Positions 35,541 through 46,978 of a DNA stretch of 56,259 bases are shown here, piece by piece (the stretch's first letter is position 1; every line of letters begins with the position of its first letter). A program made the translations under genes and the position numbers. The DNA lies in assembly GCA_024709105.1 (NCBI GenBank), contig JANJXJ010000154.1, forward strand, positions 1 to 56,259, in the 5' to 3' direction. Origin of the DNA: Lentimicrobium sp. (GTDB lineage Bacteria > Bacteroidota > Bacteroidia > Bacteroidales > Lentimicrobiaceae). The notes under the pieces were generated by a model. That model did not search any database. It was not told the DNA's origin and saw only the letters and a list, made by a program, of their open reading frames with translations.

Positions 35541-36245
35541 TTAGCCTTTCTGGCTGATTTCAAACATTCTGTTATAATCCAGAATGTTCAGGTGTTTACA
35601 TTCCAGGTCAATCAGGTTTTCTTCCTTGAACCGCGTAATGATTCTGGCTACACTTTCAACCGACATTCCGGCTATTTCAGCCAGTTCCTTGCGCGACAGG
35701 TGTAAAGGAAATTTCTGTGATTTGTAAATCCGGTTGGCAAGGCATAACAATACATCAGCAAACCGGCCGTAGGTCTGTTTTTGCGTCAGGCAGAAAAAGC
35801 GCCCACTAATAATGGTATTATATTCTGCAAGTAAAGCTATAACCTTGGTTGCAAAATCTGGATTTGTTCTTATAAGCTGCCTGAAAGTAGCAGAATCTAT
35901 AACGTCGAGTTTGGTATCCAAATAGGCTTGAGCCGAAAATTGGTAAACAGTATTGCCTTCAAACAAAGTGGAAAGGCCAATAATGTTCATCCCCGGCATA
36001 ATCTGCAAAATAAGGTTTTCTCCACTATTATTTTCCATGTAGATTTTAACAAGGCCGTCTCTCACCAGCATAATCTGGCTGGCAGGGGCTCCCTGTTTAC
36101 AGATAATCTCACCCTTTTTATAGTTAACCTCAGCTATTTTGGATTGTAAAAGTTCCAATTCTTGCTGCGAAAGCAGTTCCATACAAGAAAGCGAAGACTG
36201 CCCAATGGCACAACTGTGTTGCATAGATGCCTGAACTTCAGTCAT
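35541..36245 (-). CDS. Crp/Fnr-family transcriptional regulator
   Basis: The 234-residue protein has an N-terminal cyclic-nucleotide-binding-type beta-roll (about 25-140; KKGEIICKQGAPASQIMLV), a long dimer helix, and a C-terminal winged helix (LSRKELAEIAGMSVESVARIITRF). The recognition helix reads VE-x-x-AR (Glu196, Arg200), close to FNR's VE-x-x-SR, which predicts TTGA half-sites. Six cysteines are present (12, 21, 49, 151, 167, 215). The two near the N-terminus recall FNR's Fe-S ligands, but the spacing differs, so oxygen or redox sensing is only suggested. The gene is divergent from the octaheme cytochrome operon, with a matching dyad between them, and probably controls it. Confidence 0.9.
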   Translation of the reverse strand: MTEVQASMQHSCAIGQSSLSCMELLSQQELELLQSKIAEVNYKKGEIICKQGAPASQIMLVRDGLVKIYMENNSGENLILQIMPGMNIIGLSTLFEGNTVYQFSAQAYLDTKLDVIDSATFRQLIRTNPDFATKVIALLAEYNTIISGRFFCLTQKQTYGRFADVLLCLANRIYKSQKFPLHLSRKELAEIAGMSVESVARIITRFKEENLIDLECKHLNILDYNRMFEISQKG

Positions 36246-36270
36246 TTGTAAATATATTTTTAGTTACATG

Positions 36271-36287
36271 TTTGCACTTTATGCAAA
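36271..36287. promoter_or_regulatory. TTTGCA-N5-TGCAAA inverted repeat
   Basis: TTTGCA (36271-36276) and TGCAAA (36282-36287) form a 6+6 dyad with a 5-base spacer, between the regulator start and the FNR-type box. It lies where the regulator gene's own promoter should be, so it may be an operator; no partner is known. Confidence 0.35.
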
Positions 36288-36302
36288 GAAACAAAAAAAA
36301 AC

Positions 36303-36316
36303 TTGATTTACGTCAA
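36303..36316. promoter_or_regulatory. FNR-type box TTGA-N6-TCAA
   Basis: TTGATTTACGTCAA matches the FNR consensus TTGAT-N4-ATCAA at all but one base. It lies 59 bases before the regulator ATG and about 112 before the octaheme cytochrome ATG. The regulator's VE-x-x-AR helix is the kind that reads TTGA. A site near -41 for the regulator gene itself (autoregulation) and an upstream site for the operon are both possible. Confidence 0.55.
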
Positions 36317-36428
36317 ATTTTCTTGTGATGAAGTACATAAAAATCCATGTTCAGGTTGGTGGCTTAATAATAACTTAACATTGATTCAGGCTTTATTTTC
36401 GCATTGTTAATTCATTAACAACTGAACC

Positions 36429-38027
36429 ATGAATAATATTCTGCAAAAAGTTACAACGTTTCTGGTGGTACTGGTGTTGCCGGCATTGGTTTTATATGCT
36501 ACAGTTCACTTTGGAAACAAAAGGGGAACACCTGAAAAAATCGAATATCAGAACCGCGCCGACATTGATAAGAAAGTAGATCATTCAGAGTTCGAAATCC
36601 TGCAGCAGGAGTTTACCCGTCCTCAGGATCTCACTGCCGCCTGTCTTTCATGTCACAACAAACGCGATGATGAGCTAATGGCTTCGGCTCACTGGAAATG
36701 GGAACGCGAAACCACATTACCCAATGGCAGAGGAACTGTTACCATCGGCAAGAAAAACCTGATCAATAACTTTTGCATGGCGGCAGAAGGTAACAATGGA
36801 TCATGTATGCGCTGTCATATTGGTTATGGCTGGGAAGACAAAGATTTTGATTTTGAAGACCCAACCAATATTGATTGTTTGGTTTGCCACGACAATACCA
36901 ATACCTATAAAAAGCGCAAAGGTGGCGCAGGTATGCCGGCAACCGCCGAAAATGCAACCAAAGAATTTCCTGTTCCTGACTATAGTTATGTAGCTCAGAA
37001 TGTTGGGAAGCCATTGAAAGAGAACTGTGGTTTCTGCCATTTTCATGGTGGTGGCGGAAATAATGTAAAACACGGAGATCTTGAAGAGGCTATGCTTAAC
37101 TGCAACCGTTATGTTGATGTGCACATGGCCAAAGAAGGGCAGGATATGTCGTGCAACGACTGTCACCTCACTGAAAGACATAATATAACCGGACGAGCTT
37201 ACAGTGTATCGGCCGAAAACAACAACCGGGCCTATTGCGAAACTTGCCACACCGATACGCCTCACAACGACAGGGTTATTGATATGCATAATCACAAGGT
37301 AGCCTGCCAGACCTGTCATATTCCTGTATACGCTAAAGCCAATCCAACTGTAATGTACTGGGACTGGTCAGTGGCCGGGCAAAGAGATGCCAATGGAAAC
37401 CCGAGAACAGAATATGATGTTAATCATAAGTACAGCTACCTCTCAATAAAAGGGCGTTTTGTTTGGGACGACCATGTTAAGCCTGAGTACTTCTGGTTCA
37501 ATGGAACGGCTGATCATTATCTGTATGAAGATACTATCTCGGAGATTCCGGTTAAGATTAACGAACTGATGGGTGATTATTCCGATCCCGAGTCCAAAAT
37601 CTGGCCTGTTAAGGTTCATCGTGGCAAACAAGCTTATGATGTAGTAAACAAGTATCTTGCTAACATGAAGGTTTTTGCCGAAGGTCCCGGACAGGGTGCT
37701 TTTTGGGAAGACCTTGAATTTGACACTGCCATTCAGCTTGGTATGGCATATGTTGGGCGCGAATACAGCGGGCAATATGATTTTGTTGAAACAGTAGCTT
37801 ACTGGCCGCTCAACCATCAGGTATCGCCTAAAGAAATGACTCTTCAATGTACAGATTGTCATACCCGCAGTGAAGAAGGCCGGCTTGCCAACCTTACCGG
37901 ATTTTACCTGCCCGGCCGCGATTATGCCAAAGGAGTTGATTACACTGGATTTGCCATCATTATCATCTCGCTCCTTGGTGTTATCGTCCATTCAATCATG
38001 AGGCTGATGGCCCGTCCAAAACACTAA
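36429..38027 (+). CDS. octaheme cytochrome c, tetrathionate-reductase family
   Basis: The 532-residue protein has exactly eight CxxCH haem sites: C72, C126, C150, C200, C242, C270, C293 and C474 (first cysteine of each). Their spacing, with seven clustered and one distant, matches the octaheme 'tetrathionate reductase' family (Shewanella OTR; TIGR04315). It has hydrophobic segments at both ends (8-28 and 505-525), so it is probably a membrane-anchored periplasmic enzyme, unlike soluble OTR. OTR reduces tetrathionate, nitrite and hydroxylamine in vitro; its natural substrate is unsettled. It heads an operon with cytochrome b and sulfurtransferases, pointing to a sulfur substrate. A TATTTTCG element (36394-36401) is a possible promoter. 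Confidence 0.92.
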   Translation: MNNILQKVTTFLVVLVLPALVLYATVHFGNKRGTPEKIEYQNRADIDKKVDHSEFEILQQEFTRPQDLTAACLSCHNKRDDELMASAHWKWERETTLPNGRGTVTIGKKNLINNFCMAAEGNNGSCMRCHIGYGWEDKDFDFEDPTNIDCLVCHDNTNTYKKRKGGAGMPATAENATKEFPVPDYSYVAQNVGKPLKENCGFCHFHGGGGNNVKHGDLEEAMLNCNRYVDVHMAKEGQDMSCNDCHLTERHNITGRAYSVSAENNNRAYCETCHTDTPHNDRVIDMHNHKVACQTCHIPVYAKANPTVMYWDWSVAGQRDANGNPRTEYDVNHKYSYLSIKGRFVWDDHVKPEYFWFNGTADHYLYEDTISEIPVKINELMGDYSDPESKIWPVKVHRGKQAYDVVNKYLANMKVFAEGPGQGAFWEDLEFDTAIQLGMAYVGREYSGQYDFVETVAYWPLNHQVSPKEMTLQCTDCHTRSEEGRLANLTGFYLPGRDYAKGVDYTGFAIIIISLLGVIVHSIMRLMARPKH

Positions 38028-38046
38028 CCGAAAAACTTCAAAGACA

Positions 38047-38670
38047 ATGGAAAAGATTAAAATATTCTCCCGTTTTGAGCGATTCTGGCACTGGACACAG
38101 ATGGCCACAGTAATACTGCTCACACTTACAGGTTTTGAGATTCATGGAAACTATTCACTCTTTGGATTCGAAACTTCAGTAAGATTACATAATGCAGCGG
38201 CTATTACCTTCATAATTCTTGGTGTAATAACCATCTTCTGGCTCATTGTTACCGGGCAATACAAGAATTTTATCCCGACACGCGAAAAATTCAAGGAACA
38301 GATTCAGTATTACACCTCAGGCATTTTTAAAGGTGCTGCTCATCCTACCAAAAAATCTTTTGGTAATAAGTTGAACCCCCTGCAAAGAGTAATTTACTTA
38401 GGATTACTGATACTTATCTTCCCGGTACAAACTTTTACAGGACTTCTGTACATGTACTATCATTACCCACAAAACCCCATTGATGCCAACGGATTGTGGT
38501 TTGCAGTAATTACACACACTTTTGGTGCTTTCCTTATGGTTGCCTTTGTAATCGTACATGTTTACATGACAACAACCGGACACAGATTGTCAACCAACAT
38601 TAAAGCCATGATTTCGGGTTACGAAGAAGAACCCGTTGAAGAAAACAAAACCGAAAATCAACCTGCCTAA
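38047..38670 (+). CDS. membrane cytochrome b (Ni-hydrogenase/thiosulfate-reductase type)
   Basis: This 207-residue protein has four transmembrane helices and begins with FSRFERFWHWTQM, the classic start of diheme cytochrome b subunits. The expected haem-ligand histidines are His15, His47, His156 and His170, with additional conserved His178. Family members exchange electrons between the quinone pool and a periplasmic partner. It lies 19 bases after the octaheme gene and 12 before the next, so it almost surely serves as the quinone-side partner of the octaheme cytochrome. A long polar loop (about 72-105) and an acidic C-terminus are extra features. Confidence 0.9.
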   Translation: MEKIKIFSRFERFWHWTQMATVILLTLTGFEIHGNYSLFGFETSVRLHNAAAITFIILGVITIFWLIVTGQYKNFIPTREKFKEQIQYYTSGIFKGAAHPTKKSFGNKLNPLQRVIYLGLLILIFPVQTFTGLLYMYYHYPQNPIDANGLWFAVITHTFGAFLMVAFVIVHVYMTTTGHRLSTNIKAMISGYEEEPVEENKTENQPA

Positions 38671-38682
38671 ACAAGTAATAAT

Positions 38683-39195
38683 ATGAAAAAGATAGTTTTT
38701 GCAATTGCAGTTGTGTTTGCCCTTGCTTCTTGCAGCAAACAGGAAAAATTCTCCTCAGCCGATGCCATGGTTGATCAGGCGCTCAAAGAAATTAAGCTGA
38801 TTACAGCCGAGGAACTTGAAGCACTGATGAACAGCGAAGAGGTTTACACTCTCATTGATGTGCGGCAGGCCGAAGAGCATTACCTGGGTTACATACCCGG
38901 ATCTGTGAACATTCCAAGAGGTAGTCTTGAGTTTAATATTGGTGACTCAACTTACTGGGAAAAGGTTGGCCTTTATATGCCGCTTCCCGAAGAGAAAGTT
39001 ATTGTTTATGACCAGAAAGGCAAAAGAGGGATTCTGGCAGCTCAAACTCTTCAAAAGCTTGGCTATACCAACATCTTCGCCCTGAAAGATGGTTACAAAA
39101 AATGGGAACTGACCTTCCCCGACCTCTACGAAAAAAATCTTGAAATGCTTGGTGGTGGCAGCCACGATGCTCCCAAATCGGGAGGCGGTTGCTAA
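38683..39195 (+). CDS. rhodanese-fold lipoprotein without catalytic Cys, ending in Gly-Gly-Gly-Cys
   Basis: The 170-residue protein has a lipobox (ALASC, Cys17), so it is anchored to a membrane in the periplasm. Residues 38-145 form one rhodanese domain (TLIDVRQAEEHYLGYIPG, then the loop VIVYDQKGKRG). The position of the sulfur-carrying cysteine is Asp110, so it cannot work as a normal sulfurtransferase. The mature chain has no other internal Cys, yet the last residue is Cys170 in the tail GGGSHDAPKSGGGC. A glycine-rich flexible tail with a terminal Cys resembles the SoxY GGCGG carrier arm or DsrC tail in design, though there is no homology. I infer a sulfur or thiol carrier; this is not proven. 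Confidence 0.85.
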   Translation: MKKIVFAIAVVFALASCSKQEKFSSADAMVDQALKEIKLITAEELEALMNSEEVYTLIDVRQAEEHYLGYIPGSVNIPRGSLEFNIGDSTYWEKVGLYMPLPEEKVIVYDQKGKRGILAAQTLQKLGYTNIFALKDGYKKWELTFPDLYEKNLEMLGGGSHDAPKSGGGC

Positions 39196-39259
39196 ACCAT
39201 TCATAATACAAACAAAAACAAACAGAAAAACAAAACAATCACTTAAAACAACCAACAAC

Positions 39260-40222
39260 ATGAACAAATTAATGCGAATTTTCCTGGTTTTGGCCCTTGT
39301 GCCTGCGCTTATTCTTACAAGCTGCAAGAAAGACAATGATGAAACTACTTTTGATGCTCAGAAAGCATTGACCAAGTATCTGGTTGCCAATAATATGGAT
39401 ATCAATACAATTATAGGTGGATTTGTAATGAGTGCCCCGGCTGATGGAAATGTTTCGGCCAAATATGTTATTGACATCCGCACTGCAGATGAATTTGCTC
39501 AGGGCCATATAGAAGGTGCTCACCGTGTTGATCTTAAAAACATTCTTACTGAGGCCGCCAAAGCTGACAAACCTATATTGGTAGTTTGTAAATCAGGCCA
39601 AACTGCAACACACGCCGTTGCTTTGCTCCGTCTTTCGGGATATGCAGATGCAGTTGCTCTTAAATGGGGTATGAGTGGTTGGAATTCAACACTTGATATC
39701 TGGTCAGCCAACATAGGAAGTGTTGCCGAAGGAAATGCAAACTGGGTTTCTGATGCTGCTCCTGCCAACCTCACATTTGCCAGCCCTACATTTTCAAGCA
39801 CGGACACCATTCCTGCCAATATTCTGAAAGCCAGAGTTGCTGCAGTTTTGGAAGAAGGTTTTAAGACCATTCAGCCTGCTGATGTTTTGGCTAATCCTGC
39901 CAATTATTTCATCAACAATTATTTCAGCGAAGCAGACTATGCTGGTTTTGGCCATGTTAAAGGCGCTTACCGCATCAATCCATTGTTGGTTGGCGAAGCT
40001 CAGGTTAACTTCCTCGATCCATCAAAAGAAGTACTTACCTATTGCTACACCGGTCAGACTTCAGCTGCAATCACTGCTTACCTAAGGGTTATCGGATATA
40101 ATGCAAAGAGTGTTATGTGGGGAATGAATAAATTCTACAATTCAAACACAGCATGGGCTGAGTCTCCCAACAAATGGAAATCAACCATGGCTAAGAATCT
40201 TCCCATTGTAACTGGTAACTAA
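39260..40222 (+). CDS. tandem-rhodanese lipoprotein
   Basis: From the ATG at 39260 the protein has 320 residues and a lipobox (ALILTSC, Cys22). The earlier frame start at 39140 overlaps the preceding gene and is rejected. Two rhodanese domains lie at about 40-150 and 185-305. Both keep the active cysteine: Cys110 in the loop VVCKSGQTA and Cys262 in TYCYTGQTS. Both also carry the conserved Asp/Arg pair (VIDIRTADEF in the first; diverged FINNYFSEADYAG in the second). Such proteins move sulfane sulfur between donors and thiols. The 64-base gap before it is the largest in the operon and may hold an internal signal. It is likely periplasmic and lipid-anchored next to the Cys-tailed protein. Confidence 0.88.
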   Translation: MNKLMRIFLVLALVPALILTSCKKDNDETTFDAQKALTKYLVANNMDINTIIGGFVMSAPADGNVSAKYVIDIRTADEFAQGHIEGAHRVDLKNILTEAAKADKPILVVCKSGQTATHAVALLRLSGYADAVALKWGMSGWNSTLDIWSANIGSVAEGNANWVSDAAPANLTFASPTFSSTDTIPANILKARVAAVLEEGFKTIQPADVLANPANYFINNYFSEADYAGFGHVKGAYRINPLLVGEAQVNFLDPSKEVLTYCYTGQTSAAITAYLRVIGYNAKSVMWGMNKFYNSNTAWAESPNKWKSTMAKNLPIVTGN

Positions 40223-40235
40223 TAATTGTATACCT

Positions 40236-41246
40236 ATGAAGAAGCTGATTCTTGCAATAATTGCTATAGCAGCTCTCAGCGCAACCCGGGTTTCGGCCCA
40301 GGGTTGCGGCGGAGCTGCTTCTGATGAAGGAATTAAAATGTTCGGATTTCTGCAGTCGCAGTACGAACATCACATGACTGAACCTTCAAAAAACAGTTTC
40401 ACCTTCGAAAGAGCACGCATCGGAGCCATGGGTAAAATCCCATACGACTTCTCTTACTATGTTGTGTTGGAACTGAGCCCGTTTATTTCGTCAAATCCTT
40501 ACCTGCTCGACGCTTTTATTACCTACGACCGTTTTAAAATGGCCAAACTTTCATTAGGCTCTTTTAAAACCCCTTTTGGTCTTGAAACCAACACCGCTTG
40601 TAATGGACTAATGACTGTTTACCGTTCAACTGCTACCCTGCAGATGGTGGCTCCATTCCGTGATATGGGTGTGATGCTGCTCGGTGGTGATGAAACTACT
40701 TTAGTTCAATACCAATTGGGCTTGATGAACGGAGGCGGATTACTTAAATTTGACAACAACAAAAAGAAAGACATTGTTGGCCGCGTGGTGCTGCATCCAT
40801 TTGAATTTCTTTCGGTGGGAGGTAGTTTCCGCTATGGATATCCTTCATATTTGAATGATAAAGACACCCGAACCACTATTGGCGGGGAACTCAAACTCAA
40901 ATATAAGGGTTTTACTGTTTTGGGTGAGTATATCAACGATCAGGGCGACTACAACCGCGACCTCGGCGGCGGATGCAGCGGCAATCTGATTGAGCTTGGC
41001 GAAAAACGCAGCGGAGGTTATGTTACTTTGGCTTACCTCTCAAAATGGAATGTTGAACCCGTTTTTATGTTTGATTTCTTCGATTCCGGCAACGCAACCG
41101 GTTATAAAGAAAGCAACATGACTTTTGGTGTTAATTATTTCTTCAACGACTGGACCCGCCTGCAGGTGAACTACATTTACCGCGCCGAGTCTCCTGTTGA
41201 AGTTCCCTCTGACGAAATTGTTGTTCAGGTACAGGTTAAATTTTAA
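40236..41246 (+). CDS. outer-membrane porin (phosphate-selective porin O/P-like)
   Basis: The 336-residue protein has a signal peptide (1-21). The mature chain is a 14-16-strand-type beta-barrel with alternating hydrophobic residues, ending in VQVQVKF with the C-terminal Phe of Bam substrates. The middle matches porin O/P: FTFERARIGAMGKIPYDF, LLDAFITYDRFKMAKLSLG and FKTPFGLE. It probably lets an anionic substrate through the outer membrane. Cys24, Cys122 and Cys247 in the mature protein are unusual for a porin. The gene is 13 bases after the tandem-rhodanese gene and 11 before the sulfurtransferase, so it supplies the substrate of this operon, perhaps thiosulfate or tetrathionate. Confidence 0.85.
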   Translation: MKKLILAIIAIAALSATRVSAQGCGGAASDEGIKMFGFLQSQYEHHMTEPSKNSFTFERARIGAMGKIPYDFSYYVVLELSPFISSNPYLLDAFITYDRFKMAKLSLGSFKTPFGLETNTACNGLMTVYRSTATLQMVAPFRDMGVMLLGGDETTLVQYQLGLMNGGGLLKFDNNKKKDIVGRVVLHPFEFLSVGGSFRYGYPSYLNDKDTRTTIGGELKLKYKGFTVLGEYINDQGDYNRDLGGGCSGNLIELGEKRSGGYVTLAYLSKWNVEPVFMFDFFDSGNATGYKESNMTFGVNYFFNDWTRLQVNYIYRAESPVEVPSDEIVVQVQVKF

Positions 41247-41257
41247 TTCTTTAAACA

Positions 41258-42106
41258 ATGAAAAAACTATTTTTTGCTTGCATAGCTATCATAGCTTTTG
41301 GTTTTACAGCCATAGCTCAGGATCTTATTTCAGTTGCTGACCTGAGTGCCAAATTAAAAGACCCGAATGTAGTTGTTGTTTCGGCAGAATTGGAAACAGA
41401 ATATGCAAAAGTGCACATCAACAATGCAGTGAATGTTTCATACAAAAGCCTTGAGAAAAAAGGTGGTATCGAAGGTTTGCTCAATACTCCTGATGAACTG
41501 GCAAAAATCTTCGGTTCAAACGGGGTGAGTGAAAAGAAAACCATTATTGTTTATGATGAGGGTGCCGGAAAATACGCTTCAAGATTGTACTGGACTCTTA
41601 AGTATCTGGGAGCCCCCAATGTTAAGGTACTTGATGGTGGTTTGGTTGCATGGAAAGCAGGCCGTAAACCTGTTACCAAAAATCCAAGCAATGTAAAAGC
41701 TGAAACTTTTACCCCTTCCGTTAATAAAGCCATCTATGCTGATATGAAGGAAGTGCAGGCAGCAGCCGGAAATGCCAAAGTTATTCTGGTTGACTTGCGC
41801 GAAAATGTTGAATTCAGCGGCAAAGACCCGAAGAACAACAAAGGCCGTATTCCTGGTTCAATTAATGTAGACCATACCACTCTTATGGCAGCCAACAGCA
41901 CTTACAAAACTAAGGCAGAACTGGAAAAAATCTTCACAGCTGCAGGTGCAACCAAGGATAAAACCATTATTCTGGTTTGTCCAACAGGTGTAAGAGCTGG
42001 AAAAGGCTTTTTAGCCCTGAAATCAATCCTGGGTTATCCCAACGTTAAGGTTTACGAAGGTGGCGTAAACGAATGGGCCGCCTCTTCAAACAAACTGGAT
42101 AAGTAA
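41258..42106 (+). CDS. periplasmic tandem sulfurtransferase (thiosulfate:cyanide/SseA-type)
   Basis: This 282-residue protein has a signal peptide (1-20, ending TAIAQ). Two rhodanese domains follow (about 25-135 and 160-275). The N-terminal one is inactive, with Asp100 at the cysteine position (IVYDEGAGKYA), as in classic SseA/TST proteins. The C-terminal one is active, with Cys241 in the loop LVCPTGVRAG and the GGVNEWAAS close. It would accept sulfane sulfur from thiosulfate or 3-mercaptopyruvate and pass it to a thiol. It closes the operon before a strong terminator. Unlike the two upstream rhodanese proteins it is not lipid-anchored. Confidence 0.9.
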   Translation: MKKLFFACIAIIAFGFTAIAQDLISVADLSAKLKDPNVVVVSAELETEYAKVHINNAVNVSYKSLEKKGGIEGLLNTPDELAKIFGSNGVSEKKTIIVYDEGAGKYASRLYWTLKYLGAPNVKVLDGGLVAWKAGRKPVTKNPSNVKAETFTPSVNKAIYADMKEVQAAAGNAKVILVDLRENVEFSGKDPKNNKGRIPGSINVDHTTLMAANSTYKTKAELEKIFTAAGATKDKTIILVCPTGVRAGKGFLALKSILGYPNVKVYEGGVNEWAASSNKLDK

Positions 42107-42128
42107 TTTTGTTTTCCTGTTTGTATTG

Positions 42129-42160
42129 CCGGGTGTTGCTTGTAGCAGCATCCGGTTTTT
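42129..42160 (+). terminator. rho-independent terminator ending the octaheme/rhodanese operon
   Basis: 42129-42140 pairs with 42144-42155 (12 bp, two G-U pairs) around a 3-base TGT loop, followed by TTTTT-C-TTTT. It lies 22 bases after the last sulfurtransferase stop and supports one six-gene transcript. Confidence 0.85.
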
Positions 42161-42262
42161 CTTTTCCTGCATGATAAAATCAGCCGGTTAAGCCAATTCA
42201 GTTAATGTTTGAAATTAGTTTAAAGCAGAGATTAACCGTTTGACATTTACAAAATTGAAATT

Positions 42263-43357
42263 TTAAAAGCTTTCATTACTGTTACTTTTTGTACCAAGCA
42301 AATCTGCAGCAAGGCAGGAATGAACCGGAATAATTGCAACCAAATCCCCGGGCTTAAGTTGTTTTGCCCAATCACTGTCAAGCGTGAGTATTCCATGTTC
42401 CTGCGAAACAGAACTTAAATGATCCTGTCCCTCTGCTGCTGCCCAGATATTGTTTTGAAAAGGAACTGCAAGGCCGAAGGTCTTTCTTCCTTGTTCAGGT
42501 TGCAGGAATTCTTTTGATAAATGCACGGCACCACCATAAATCAGCGCTTCGTTTCTATGCGGATATACTGAAATAACCGGGCAGATTACAGCCGCTGAAA
42601 TTTGCCCAAAACCGCAGGAACCTAAATGCATTTGCATTAAATCGTAAAAAACAAAATTCCCGGGTCTTATTTCGTCAATTCCATAAAAGTCGTCAGCCAG
42701 GCTACAGGAGGGAGTATCGCCGGTTGATACAATCAAATCGGGATATTTTGCTTTGTAACGAACTTTAAGCTGTTGCAGGATATCTTTGGAATTTTGGTGA
42801 GCGGCCAATATCTCATCTGCACTCTGAGCTTTGTAAGTTTGTCCGGCATGGGTGAGAAAACCTTTGAATTTTAATGGATAAGCGGAAGCAGCAGAAATGA
42901 TTTGATCAATTCCTGAGTAGTCGGTGGGTTCCAGGCCAGCTCTGTTGTTGCCTGTATTGATTTTTATAAAATATCCAGCCACACTCCTTAGTTGATTGCC
43001 AAGTGCAGAAGCTTGTTCAGGCATATCAAACAGAACATTCAGATCGGTTGATTCAGCTAATAATGCAGCCGTTTCACTTTCTCTGATATTAAACGGGAAA
43101 GCAATGGTGATATCTTTCCAGCCCTCAGTTGCAAATTTCCAGGCCATACTAACCGAAGAAACTGTAATTGCCCTGATCCCTCCATCGCTGAACCATTTAC
43201 CAACCTCAGGTGACTGATGTGTTTTAAAGTGAGGGCGGAACAAAAGCTTATGAATGCTGGCTTTGGTGGCCATGGCAGCAATATTTTTTCTGCACTGCGC
43301 TTCATTAATCATGAGCATAGGCCTGGTGATTAAATCAGAACCTGTTTTGACAGACAT
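42263..43357 (-). CDS. D-threonine aldolase-type / alanine-racemase-fold PLP enzyme
   Basis: The 364-residue cytosolic protein has a fold type III PLP enzyme layout. The PLP lysine is Lys45 in RPHFKTHQSP. Further landmarks are KINTGNNRAG, FKGFLTHAGQ, VSTGDTPS, EIRPGNFVFYD and the C-terminal metal-binding IPVHSCLAADLL, where D-threonine aldolases carry H-x-C or H-x-D. It should cleave or dehydrate a beta-hydroxy-D-amino acid. The exact substrate (D-threonine, D-serine and so on) is not readable. The ATG at 43357 is used in place of one at 43393, which adds only a polar leader. The gene lies between the sulfur operon's terminator and a divergent lipoprotein gene. Confidence 0.88.
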   Translation of the reverse strand: MSVKTGSDLITRPMLMINEAQCRKNIAAMATKASIHKLLFRPHFKTHQSPEVGKWFSDGGIRAITVSSVSMAWKFATEGWKDITIAFPFNIRESETAALLAESTDLNVLFDMPEQASALGNQLRSVAGYFIKINTGNNRAGLEPTDYSGIDQIISAASAYPLKFKGFLTHAGQTYKAQSADEILAAHQNSKDILQQLKVRYKAKYPDLIVSTGDTPSCSLADDFYGIDEIRPGNFVFYDLMQMHLGSCGFGQISAAVICPVISVYPHRNEALIYGGAVHLSKEFLQPEQGRKTFGLAVPFQNNIWAAAEGQDHLSSVSQEHGILTLDSDWAKQLKPGDLVAIIPVHSCLAADLLGTKSNSNESF

Positions 43358-43537
43358 TTTGGTTTGTTTTTGAAAAGGTAAAGGTAACTCCAATAATTCA
43401 TACGGTCCAATGATTGCGATTGAAAAATTGTTTAATACAACCTTTATTTGAGTAGTTGATAATCAAGTGTATATAAAATAGAGAGCCAGCTAATATGTTT
43501 ATGTTTGATTATAACAATAACTTCTGAAAATCATTGA

Positions 43538-44200: not shown

Positions 44201-44228
44201 GGGCGATCAAAATCTGGTCGCTCTTTTT
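44201..44228. terminator. terminator between convergent genes
   Basis: GGGCGATC (44201-44208) pairs with GGTCGCTC (44216-44223, two G-U), loop 7 bases, followed by TTTTT. It overlaps the 3' end of the AlgJ-like gene and ends the lipoprotein transcript. Confidence 0.65.
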
Positions 44229-45558
44229 AATTGTTTTTGTTTGTATATACCCATTCTGCATCTAGTCTCAACATTTCCTGGTAGGTTATTTTTTTCTCTC
44301 TGGCTTTCTGCAGAACTTTTTCCTTCCATTCGCTATTGCTGTCAATAGAGTTCATTATCTTTTCAATTTCAGCCTCCTTACGCGCTTCTGCATCAGCCTT
44401 GATCTTTGATTGATTCATAATAATGTTTTCATCAGCAAGCAATTCATAAGCCCTGTTGATAAAACCATAAGGGAAACGATACAGGTTTGCTTCGGTGGCC
44501 ATAATAATGATCACATCAGCCTTATTTAATTCCTGCTGCAAATCAAGATCTGCAGTCTTCTGTGGAGAAGGCCAGGCTGGGTTATGCGCTTCAGCGTTAT
44601 AGTACCAGAAATTGTTGTCAGCGAATATTCTTGACGAATAACCCTTGCCAAAAATGTTCCAGTAATAGCTGTCGGCTACAACCAAAGCATTGGGCCTGAT
44701 CTTGTTAAGCTCATCTCCAAAAAATACTTTTGGATATGCCATTTTATAGTGAGGTATTTTCCAAAGTAAATTCATCCCTTCAGCAATATCGTAATCAGGA
44801 TTCCTGAGTGTATCGGGTGTTTCAAATCCATTCCATCCAAAATCAACCATATCTATTTTCTGGTCTCTTTCAATATACCTGATCAATGAATCTGTTGCCA
44901 AAGCAGCACCATAGGCACTCCAGTGAATGCCGCATTGCGGGTAAAGGGGATAGGTAGCTGTATCTTTCATTTTCACAAACCATTCATTGAAATCAACAAC
45001 GGGTAGTGAGTTTCGTGCAAATTCCCGCTTAAATTCCTCATAGTTCGTAGCGGGCCCCGAAGGTCTGTTAAGGTATTCATCCGGGATATATTCAGGAAAA
45101 AAACTTGCCTTACCCGGGGCGAACACAAAAATGAGGGTTTTGCCCGATTGTTTAAGTTTGTTGTAAACAGCCAGTGATTTGGAAGCATGTTCTTTTATCA
45201 CATCCGAACCGACAAAATCCCATCCTTTAAATGCTTTTATATAATTGATTTCGTAAAGATAATTGTTCTTACCTATGATTACGCCGTTGGCCAAGGCAGT
45301 GTCGAAAACCGAAAATGCTACCTGATTATTGATCCTGACCAGCAAAGGCCTGAAACCAATGGTATGTTCAAAATAATTATTAAACGCTTCCTGATAACTG
45401 CCATCCAGCACTTTGGCAAGTGTTGCTACCGGATTTTCAGGTACACTGTATGAACCTTTGAGCGGCGTTTCGTCAAATACCGGAACCGTGCGTTGCAGCA
45501 ATGGCAGTGCGATCATGATCATCAGCACTCCGAATAGTATGTTTTTTAACCGCTTCAT
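44227..45558 (-). CDS. AlgJ/AlgX-like O-acetyltransferase (SGNH fold)
   Basis: The 443-residue protein has an N-terminal membrane anchor (5-22) and an AlgX-type SGNH domain: GVIIGKNNYLYE (92-103), YPQCGIHWSAYGAAL with His212, and ALVVADSYYWNIF with Ser297. In AlgJ/AlgX the active loop is D-x-H-W; here the Asp position is Gly210, so the catalytic triad appears incomplete or altered, which is common in Bacteroidota relatives. It likely O-acetylates a periplasmic or surface polysaccharide, using acetate passed by the MBOAT partner encoded 1 base upstream. The last 35 residues are a charged helix ending DAEWVYTNKNN, like the end of the protein at 51263-52828. Confidence 0.85.
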   Translation of the reverse strand: MKRLKNILFGVLMIMIALPLLQRTVPVFDETPLKGSYSVPENPVATLAKVLDGSYQEAFNNYFEHTIGFRPLLVRINNQVAFSVFDTALANGVIIGKNNYLYEINYIKAFKGWDFVGSDVIKEHASKSLAVYNKLKQSGKTLIFVFAPGKASFFPEYIPDEYLNRPSGPATNYEEFKREFARNSLPVVDFNEWFVKMKDTATYPLYPQCGIHWSAYGAALATDSLIRYIERDQKIDMVDFGWNGFETPDTLRNPDYDIAEGMNLLWKIPHYKMAYPKVFFGDELNKIRPNALVVADSYYWNIFGKGYSSRIFADNNFWYYNAEAHNPAWPSPQKTADLDLQQELNKADVIIIMATEANLYRFPYGFINRAYELLADENIIMNQSKIKADAEARKEAEIEKIMNSIDSNSEWKEKVLQKAREKKITYQEMLRLDAEWVYTNKNN

Positions 45559-45559
45559 C

Positions 45560-46978
45560 TCAAAACCTGAAATAAATAAACGGATTAAAACCTGAAGAAG
45601 TTATGGCAGCCAGACTAACGACAAAAAATACAACCGAAGCCAAAGTCATCCAGATGAGTACTGAAACCTTCTGTTTTTTTGCATATAACTTCATTTGCCA
45701 GTTTTCTATCTTACCAAAAGCGGCCCAAACTGCGAATAAGGCTGCAGGAATCAGAATTATCCAAACTTTCTGACTGATATAAACAGCAGGTCCGGGTGTA
45801 AAACTGAACATTCTGGCAATGTAATCCCAGGCATAGGCCATGGTTTCTGATCTGAACAACACCCAGCCTACCAGCGTAATGATAAAAGTTATGAAGATTG
45901 ATGGATATTTGCCGATGGCTTTGAAGAACTTCAACAGGAAAAGGCGGTCGGCGATCAGGAAAAACCCGTGAAAAGCGCCCCAGACAACAAAATTCCAGGC
46001 AGCGCCATGCCAAAAACCGGAAATCAGAAAAACAAACCACAGATTGAAGTATAATCTTGCCCCCGAAACCTTTTTCCCTCCGAGTGGAATATACAGATAA
46101 TCGCGCATCCACCTGCCGAGAGAAATGTGCCATCTGCGCCAGAACTCACTGATATTCTGAGAAATATACGGGTTATTAAAGTTTTCCAGAAAGTCAAATC
46201 CAATCATTCTGCCCAGTCCGATGGCCATGTCAGAATAACCGGAAAAGTCGTAATATATTTGAAAAGCATAGGCAAGAACACCCATCCAGGCAGTGGCAGT
46301 GCTCATCCCGTCCGGACTTTGGGCAAAAACGGTGTCTGCATATTCTCCCAGCACATTGGCTATCAAAACTTTTTTGCCCAACCCAAGTGCAAATCTGAAG
46401 AAACCTGTCAGGCGATTATCCACATTCTCATTATCTCGCCGGTCTTCAAGTTGATCAGCTACTTCATTAAATCGAACAATAGGGCCTGCAATAAGCTGCG
46501 GAAACATCAGAATATAAAGTGCAAAATCGCTCATTCTTTTTAAAGGAGTGTGCACCTTGCGGTAAACGTCCACCGCATAGGTCATCTTTTGAAAGCTGAA
46601 GAATGAAATTCCGATAGGCAGCGCTACTTTTGTCCATTCAGCAGGTTTACTGCCCATGGATTCAAGTAAAAGATTGAAGTTTTCGACAAAAAAGTTGGCA
46701 TACTTAAAATACAGAAGCATACCTATATTCAGGGCAATGGAAAAGGCTACCAGCAGCCTTTTTTTCCGGCCGGAAGAGGTATGCATTATTTTTACTGCAT
46801 AAAAGTCGGCTACTATTGACCCGGCAACAATAAAAATAAAGGTGGGAGCACCCCATGCATAAAAGAAAACGCTGGCGGCAAGAGCAATATAGTTCTTGTA
46901 TTTTGTTTTGGCAAAATAGTAGAATAAAAGAAATACCGGCAGGAAATACAATAGAAAAAGGCTGCTGCTGAAAACCAT
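45560..46978 (-). CDS. MBOAT-family O-acyltransferase (AlgI/DltB-like)
   Basis: The 472-residue protein has about 10 hydrophobic segments. Family signatures include FSGYSDMAIGLGRMIGF, FNNPYISQNISEFWRRWH, and the catalytic His region SGFWHGAAWNFVVWGAFHG (two His, the second being the likely catalytic one). AlgI-type proteins move an acyl group (usually acetyl) from cytoplasmic acyl-CoA through the membrane to a periplasmic partner. That partner is the AlgJ-like protein whose start follows the stop by 1 base (TGAGATG), implying translational coupling. Confidence 0.92.
   Translation of the reverse strand: MVFSSSLFLLYFLPVFLLFYYFAKTKYKNYIALAASVFFYAWGAPTFIFIVAGSIVADFYAVKIMHTSSGRKKRLLVAFSIALNIGMLLYFKYANFFVENFNLLLESMGSKPAEWTKVALPIGISFFSFQKMTYAVDVYRKVHTPLKRMSDFALYILMFPQLIAGPIVRFNEVADQLEDRRDNENVDNRLTGFFRFALGLGKKVLIANVLGEYADTVFAQSPDGMSTATAWMGVLAYAFQIYYDFSGYSDMAIGLGRMIGFDFLENFNNPYISQNISEFWRRWHISLGRWMRDYLYIPLGGKKVSGARLYFNLWFVFLISGFWHGAAWNFVVWGAFHGFFLIADRLFLLKFFKAIGKYPSIFITFIITLVGWVLFRSETMAYAWDYIARMFSFTPGPAVYISQKVWIILIPAALFAVWAAFGKIENWQMKLYAKKQKVSVLIWMTLASVVFFVVSLAAITSSGFNPFIYFRF

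Follow-up and report, generated by a model that had tools for sequence, protein, structure and literature searches.

The octaheme tetrathionate reductases (OTR) are cytochromes with tetrathionate activity in vitro and a known crystal structure but, to our knowledge, no agreed natural role. The 56,259-nucleotide stretch of Lentimicrobium sp. DNA analysed here, called the window, is part of contig C196 of a genome of 4.47 Mb that is 97% complete. It carries an operon in which an OTR stands first, followed by a cytochrome b, two rhodanese proteins, a porin and a further sulfurtransferase with rhodanese domains, and its nearest OTR relatives belong to Bacteroidales/Marinilabiliaceae assemblies. 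We read this operon, with a probability of about one half, as coding for an anaerobic reductase that is linked to menaquinol, acts on sulfane-sulfur compounds (of tetrathionate, polysulfide or thiosulfonate type) and receives its substrate bound to protein cysteines. New here are C-terminal cysteine arms on the rhodaneses, invariant cysteines in the porin and a YeeE-type OTR operon, of which the genome has its own example. All three had escaped a preliminary description of the locus, which proposed a sulfur-respiration module; that sulfur reading is strengthened and its mechanism is changed.

Several described systems resemble the locus in part; the papers cited by PMC number enter this comparison as excerpts. 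The octaheme protein 1SP3 from Shewanella, of the same family (TIGR04315), is homologous to the window's OTR over 426 residues (413 bits) and shares eight hemes and the equivalents of Cys64 and Lys153. Unlike 1SP3, the window protein has a C-terminal hydrophobic helix, a cytochrome b partner and a rhodanese/porin operon. The Geobacter ext cluster has a multiheme (seleno)cytochrome with a cytochrome b (PMC5877670) and a porin and rhodanese pair, ExtI and ExtH, in which the ExtI Cys aligns with C122 of the window's porin and ExtH is Cys-tailed. The window's OTR is nevertheless not ExtKL (17.6 of 250 bits), its porin and last sulfurtransferase score below the ExtI and ExtH cut-offs (41.5 of 150 and 79.3 of 200 bits), and the ext cluster, unlike the window operon, has a LysR-type regulator (PMC6148476). 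Porins with exported sulfurtransferases have been proposed to import polysulfide (PMC12142623, PMC6896113): Desulfurivibrio dismutans has a porin, periplasmic sulfurtransferases and YeeE (PMC12142623), and Deferribacter has a porin and a rhodanese near Ttr (PMC6896113). Those organisms differ in using Psr or Ttr molybdoenzymes, and the excerpts of both reports describe no OTR link, Cys arms or porin cysteines. In Dethiobacter grown with thiosulfate, a SirA-like octaheme protein that is encoded together with rhodaneses increases (PMC10376724). As far as accessible excerpts of the open-licence PMC literature go, we found neither the operon nor the tails described.

The six genes lie on the forward strand in the order OTR (36429..38027), cytochrome b (38047..38670), RHO1 (38683..39195), RHO2 (39260..40222), POR (40236..41246) and SST (41258..42106), separated by 19, 12, 64, 13 and 11 bases. 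They end at an intrinsic terminator (42128..42162, forward strand) made of a hairpin at 42128-42156 (-21.3 kcal/mol) and a T-rich run. The tight spacing, the terminator and the protein families of the preliminary description were thus confirmed, except for the Cys-less label of RHO1, with matches to TIGR04315, PF01292, PF00581 (in three proteins) and PF07396. The b561-type cytochrome b (PF01292, 92.6 bits) is the likely quinol-side partner; its best NCBIfam match is the thiosulfate reductase cytochrome b (PRK15006), at 87.7 bits, below the cut-off of 204. No molybdopterin catalytic subunit was found by Pfam among the operon proteins. The whole genome has one PF00384 match, on contig C140.

RHO1 is a rhodanese lipoprotein with Asp110 at the position of the active-site Cys, and had been described as a Cys-less rhodanese. 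This was wrong. RHO1 ends in a low-order arm (KSGGGC, with Cys170 as the last residue), and 18/18 aligned rows keep this final Gly-Cys pair, the tail reading GGC in 17 of them and AGC in L111. The active-site Cys is kept in 17/17 aligned relatives, and Asp110 is found in the window alone; a Cys-less pseudo-rhodanese was rejected on these two grounds. The AlphaFold2 model shows a confident rhodanese core, with many rhodaneses among its PDB matches, and a predicted local distance difference test score (pLDDT) below 50 at residues 162-170. RHO2 is a lipoprotein with two rhodanese domains and an active-site Cys in both (CKSGQT and CYTGQT). SST is an exported tandem sulfurtransferase of distant MST/ExtH similarity, with Asp in the first active-site loop and Cys in the second (CPTGVRAG).

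Tails of this kind, defined as a C-terminal G[GS]C motif whose Cys is followed by two residues or fewer, were counted in two samples. The phylum sample covers 395 genomes, 55 of them with an OTR over the cut-off, and 59 OTR operons were fetched from it. The named set consists of the best 80 loci by similarity to the window's OTR (79 OTR genes called, with none in L122 and L158 and two in L172), and its counts are biased because of this choice. Some loci of the two samples are the same genome, as identical tree rows show (e.g. L040/L175, L060/L142). Genes came from a simple open reading frame (ORF) caller, an operon was a run of genes with gaps below 250 bases, and rhodanese, YeeE and porin labels came from iterated profiles, with Pfam run on representatives only, so a few gene labels may be wrong. 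With these rules, 29/31 rhodanese-family proteins of phylum-sample OTR operons are tailed against 1/891 other ORFs, and 79/99 operon rhodaneses of the named set against 0/782. Rhodaneses outside the OTR operons at the same loci are also tailed (3/4 and 11/20), and the two unlinked rhodaneses of the Lentimicrobium genome have no Cys tail. Counts per rhodanese architecture pool both sets, OTR-linked or not, and include two entries that look false: the tail is present in 18/43 tandem rhodaneses and in 71/74 YeeE-rhodanese proteins, which have the active-site Cys in 0/74, as if, from these sequences, the active site had been lost and the tail Cys had taken its place. The rhodanese end of six YeeE fusions was assigned to the periplasm by a crude method based on hydropathy and charge, with six helices in five of them and seven in L057.

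The porin also bears cysteines. POR is a predicted 16-strand porin of Porin_O_P type (PF07396) whose C24 (QGC, just past the signal peptide), C122 and C247 (GGGC) are invariant in 12/12 aligned porins, eleven near an OTR and one from the PhsA-linked locus L181 described below. The two other Porin_O_P proteins of the genome contain zero cysteines. The AlphaFold2 model (mean pLDDT 80, 16 strands) has OprP/OprO as best matches. It locates C122 within a long loop (112-141) and C247 within one predicted with low confidence (244-250). If POR has the topology usual for porins, C122 would face the pore, C247 would look outward and C24 would lie on the periplasmic side.

The OTR itself (569.1 bits against TIGR04315, cut-off 375) has eight CxxCH motifs and two hydrophobic segments, one at the N-terminus (8-26) and the other the C-terminal helix (508-526). 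By alignment its C116 corresponds to Cys64 and its K214 to Lys153 of 1SP3, and both are invariant in 8 rows. In 1SP3 both are active-site residues, Cys64 lying beside the heme ligated by Lys153. Exactly one in-frame TGA occurs in 20 of the 49 OTR matches over cut-off in the Caldimicrobium phylum. Among 21 loci of that phylum that were read, the TGA falls at the C116 position in 12/12 TGA-bearing loci and the other 9 have Cys there. At this conserved NNF-C position the TGA probably encodes selenocysteine, and the twelve proteins (L178, L190-L200) are likely selenoproteins. In the table of a review the OTR family appears as a selenoprotein annotated in GenBank, with no motif given (PMC13188914). 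A selenol in place of the C116 thiol would favour S-S chemistry of the thiol type.

The same six-gene order, which the preliminary description proposed to look for, was found in 8/80 named loci (L099, L100, L101, L103, L104, L110, L112 and L113), all of them from Bacteroidota and with a divergent gene of 230-253 codons at the regulator position. L108 and L171 have the operon genes rearranged or interrupted; the stretches of L102, L105 and L109 end soon after, and that of L111 less than 1 kilobase past RHO1. A quick OTR tree, supported only by the Shimodaira-Hasegawa-like approximate likelihood ratio test (SH-aLRT), places the window in a clade of 19 rows (SH-aLRT 99), 18 of which have the window's porin operon type, or P-type.

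The commoner arrangement is a different one. YeeE/YedE genes (PF04143 in the representatives scanned) and rhodanese genes are present in 31/59 phylum-sample OTR operons, a cytochrome b in 39/59 and a MerR gene in 10/59, and the typical order is OTR-CYB-YeeE-YeeE/rhodanese, CYB being the cytochrome b. This operon type has OTR, CYB and tailed rhodaneses in common with the window operon and differs from it in having YeeE genes for the porin and SST, and other regulators. Both types coexist in the Lentimicrobium genome, whose second OTR operon (L039:1133-6909, contig C140) encodes OTR, CYB, a tandem rhodanese, YeeE, a YeeE-rhodanese and a 203-residue protein that is a rhodanese by iterated profile and not by Pfam. 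Full-length matches to the YeeE-rhodanese model (E-value 1e-120 or better, a limit set after the list had been seen) occur in 38 genomes, 35 of which have an OTR (Fisher p 2e-32, uncorrected for kinship). In G011, G016 and G134, the three without OTR, the match is to a split gene whose stop was read through, which is not so for the other 35. E. coli YeeE imports thiosulfate (PMC11073785).

The YeeE and tailed-rhodanese cassette also follows genes of about 740, 180 and 315 codons, in G016, G134, G188, G337, G006 and G389; the first five have no OTR match and G389 has its OTR elsewhere in the genome. PhsA, a thiosulfate reductase, is the best match of the large proteins in L181, L182, L184 and L185 (4/4 scanned), at 463-536 bits, below the cut-off of 694. 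Molybdoenzyme partners were confirmed in L181 (an iron-sulfur protein and NrfD) and L185 (NrfD); L180 and L183 were assigned by gene size and order only, and the G011 contig is not long enough for a judgement. The PhsA-linked cassettes (L180-L185) resemble the window operon in their tailed rhodaneses and differ in having molybdoenzyme, iron-sulfur and NrfD proteins for OTR and CYB. One of these loci (L181:3597-13837) brings together a PhsA-like molybdoenzyme, a pair of YeeE genes, two rhodaneses with GGC tails and, in addition, two tandem rhodaneses and a Cys porin homologous to POR. A multiheme cytochrome beside this cassette matches ExtM below the cut-off.

That the operon is a sulfur-linked electron-transfer module is well supported, as judged from gene content, because its order is kept in eight loci, YeeE sister operons exist, the cassette recurs behind PhsA-like enzymes and the OTR has a Cys/Sec site (Cys or selenocysteine). 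To this extent the sulfur module of the preliminary description stands. We infer the substrate, the reductive direction, the docking of arms on OTR and the regulation from this context. The Cys-bearing porin would admit or relay a sulfur compound, and RHO2 and SST would, through their rhodanese domains, charge flexible arms with sulfur, for example the GGC at the C-terminus of RHO1. An arm would then bring a Cys-S-S(-SO3) adduct up to the active site of OTR. There the S-S bond could be attacked by Cys116, which lies next to the heme with the Lys ligand, with electrons passing from quinol through cytochrome b and the eight OTR hemes to Cys116 and its heme. Expression of the operon would be under the Crp/Fnr regulator. 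More tentatively, the whole might be a respiratory chain on protein-bound sulfur, in which a thiol porin, with cysteines in an outer loop, in a pore loop and on the periplasmic side, and GGC-armed rhodaneses pass sulfane sulfur from one Cys to the next through the outer membrane and on to an octaheme reductase with the Cys/Sec site; such a chain would be a molybdenum-free counterpart of Phs/Psr and a reductive mirror of the SoxYZ cycle. The arm motif of SoxY is GGCGG, and the arms proposed here differ from SoxY in having a rhodanese fold and, usually, Cys as the last residue. The common point would be sulfur carriage in the periplasm on a flexible Cys arm, SoxY having a swinging arm (PMC11237559). 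The operon proteins give no match to the SoxY domain (PF13501) at an E-value of 0.01, and the likeness is one of analogy, not homology.

A number of observations weigh against this sulfur-carrier reading. By its sequence the window's own RHO1 has lost the rhodanese Cys, and RHO2 and SST are without a Cys tail. POR and SST resemble ExtI and ExtH of a selenite/tellurite cluster. L106, L107 and L172 have RHO1 and no RHO2-POR-SST in the fetched stretch, a strict Crp/Fnr box is missing in 11/18 P-type loci, and G188, which has no OTR, encodes a weaker but true YeeE-rhodanese fusion. The preliminary description had let its case hang on octaheme genes keeping rhodanese and porin neighbours. The outcome is mixed: rhodanese and YeeE genes are indeed frequent neighbours, as counted above, but a porin accompanies OTR in 0/59 phylum-sample operons, the porin-bearing type being rare, and 28/59 of these operons, Chlorobium included, lack rhodanese and YeeE under the operon rule used. 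Chlorobium has OTR-CYB without either neighbour. In the Caldimicrobium phylum, rhodanese or YeeE genes adjoin OTR in 0/20 loci examined, which were hand-picked from the 49 matches (11 of them TGA-bearing and 9 not; in L201 no OTR was called). OTR is therefore not always in need of arms, which are an addition in part of its family. A universal OTR-rhodanese linkage was rejected on the Caldimicrobium-phylum and Chlorobium loci, and a linkage confined to Bacteroidota on tailed YeeE-rhodaneses at named loci with the labels Chthonomonadia (L122), LCP-89 (L143), Planctomycetales (L155) and Acidobacteria (L158).

These loci lend some weight to a simpler explanation, in which OTR reduces free tetrathionate or thiosulfate directly and the rhodaneses and their tails do no more than recover or detoxify the sulfide, sulfite or persulfide that is formed. 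The name of the family and its activity in vitro agree with it, as do OTR-CYB pairs without rhodaneses (CYB adjoins OTR in 14 of the 20 Caldimicrobium-phylum loci, and in Chlorobium). It fails to explain why Cys arms are frequent on several rhodanese architectures or why the porin cysteines are invariant, and we think it unlikely. An oxidative direction, in which OTR in the manner of SoxAX would join thiosulfate or sulfide to a Cys arm, with the electrons going to quinone, seems improbable. The arms are SoxY-like by analogy, OTR is present in Chlorobium, and in lucinid symbionts otr adjoins divergent soxY and soxZ (PMC11237559), but where the cassette has another partner than OTR it is a PhsA-like reductase, and a Crp/Fnr box stands upstream of OTR. 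A search of the Lentimicrobium genome for SoxY gave no match and was uninformative, as the control gave none either.

Selenite or tellurite as natural substrate, with porin and rhodanese acting as an ExtHI-like pair as in Geobacter, is very doubtful. ExtI is the sole NCBIfam match of POR, and an extI mutant is impaired in selenite and tellurite reduction (PMC5877670). The single ExtI Cys aligns with POR C122 in 3/3 ExtI proteins that have an ExtH neighbour. Those ExtH rhodaneses, which are over the NCBIfam cut-off (L218:2768-4135, L219:2806-4245 and L220:3-1424), end in GGGGC, GGGC and VVGC. The scores of POR and SST are nonetheless far below the cut-offs, and the YeeE genes and PhsA-like enzymes of sister loci point to sulfur. 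The three ExtI-ExtH pairs support the arm-porin idea without favouring a substrate, and Cys arms may serve the ext cluster in the same way. An ammonifying nitrite or hydroxylamine reductase with incidental sulfur genes is highly implausible, despite the reduction of both compounds in vitro by the Shewanella octaheme protein (cited in PMC11237559), because a separate NrfA-family protein (PF02335, 583 bits, C219) elsewhere in the genome makes such a role redundant and leaves it unsupported by gene context, the operon proteins give no PF02335 match, the sulfur neighbours are conserved and a Cys/Sec site would be unexpected for nitrite chemistry.

With its operon context, the Cys/Sec site and the arms, the natural role of OTR becomes a testable question: which arm docks, and with what cargo. 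If arms deliver the substrate under the sulfur-carrier reading, assays with free anions have measured a side reaction, and the counting of otr as 'tetrathionate reduction' in sulfur-cycle surveys (e.g. PMC7887784) needs revision. With its three invariant cysteines, the porin would point to a new route for zero-valent sulfur across the outer membrane.

The regulator gene (35541..36245, reverse strand; PF00027, cNMP_binding, and PF13545, HTH_Crp_2) is divergent from the operon, and the dyad TTGATTTACGTCAA (36303..36316), of the Crp/Fnr-type pattern TTGA-N6-TCAA, begins 126 bases ahead of OTR. This pattern occurs at most 260 bases upstream of OTR in 7/18 P-type loci and in none of the non-P-type OTR genes scanned. 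Gene and dyad are thus present as first described. The Fnr-type part of the description fared less well: oxygen sensors of the Fnr kind have four cluster-binding cysteines, and among the homologues listed this protein has two conserved N-terminal Cys (SC-x8-C); iron-sulfur sensing could not be shown. In two YeeE-type operons a MerR-type regulator with a Cys-rich C-terminal part, a possible sulfur or redox sensor, lies just before OTR (L057:8406-8873 and L052:8343-8819).

OTR was also found on five plasmid records, four from Paracoccus and one from Photobacterium, which are not decisive; cysteine desulfurase and suf genes lie near OTR on the Paracoccus ferrooxidans plasmid, and the Photobacterium region is unannotated. 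Beyond the 3' end of the window operon, on the opposite strand (42263-43393), is a gene for a pyridoxal phosphate enzyme of the D-serine dehydratase/alanine racemase fold that looks unrelated. Further along the same strand (44227-46978), an MBOAT acyltransferase gene (45560-46978) adjoins one for an exported protein (44227-45558), and the two resemble a pair of the alginate-acetylation type.

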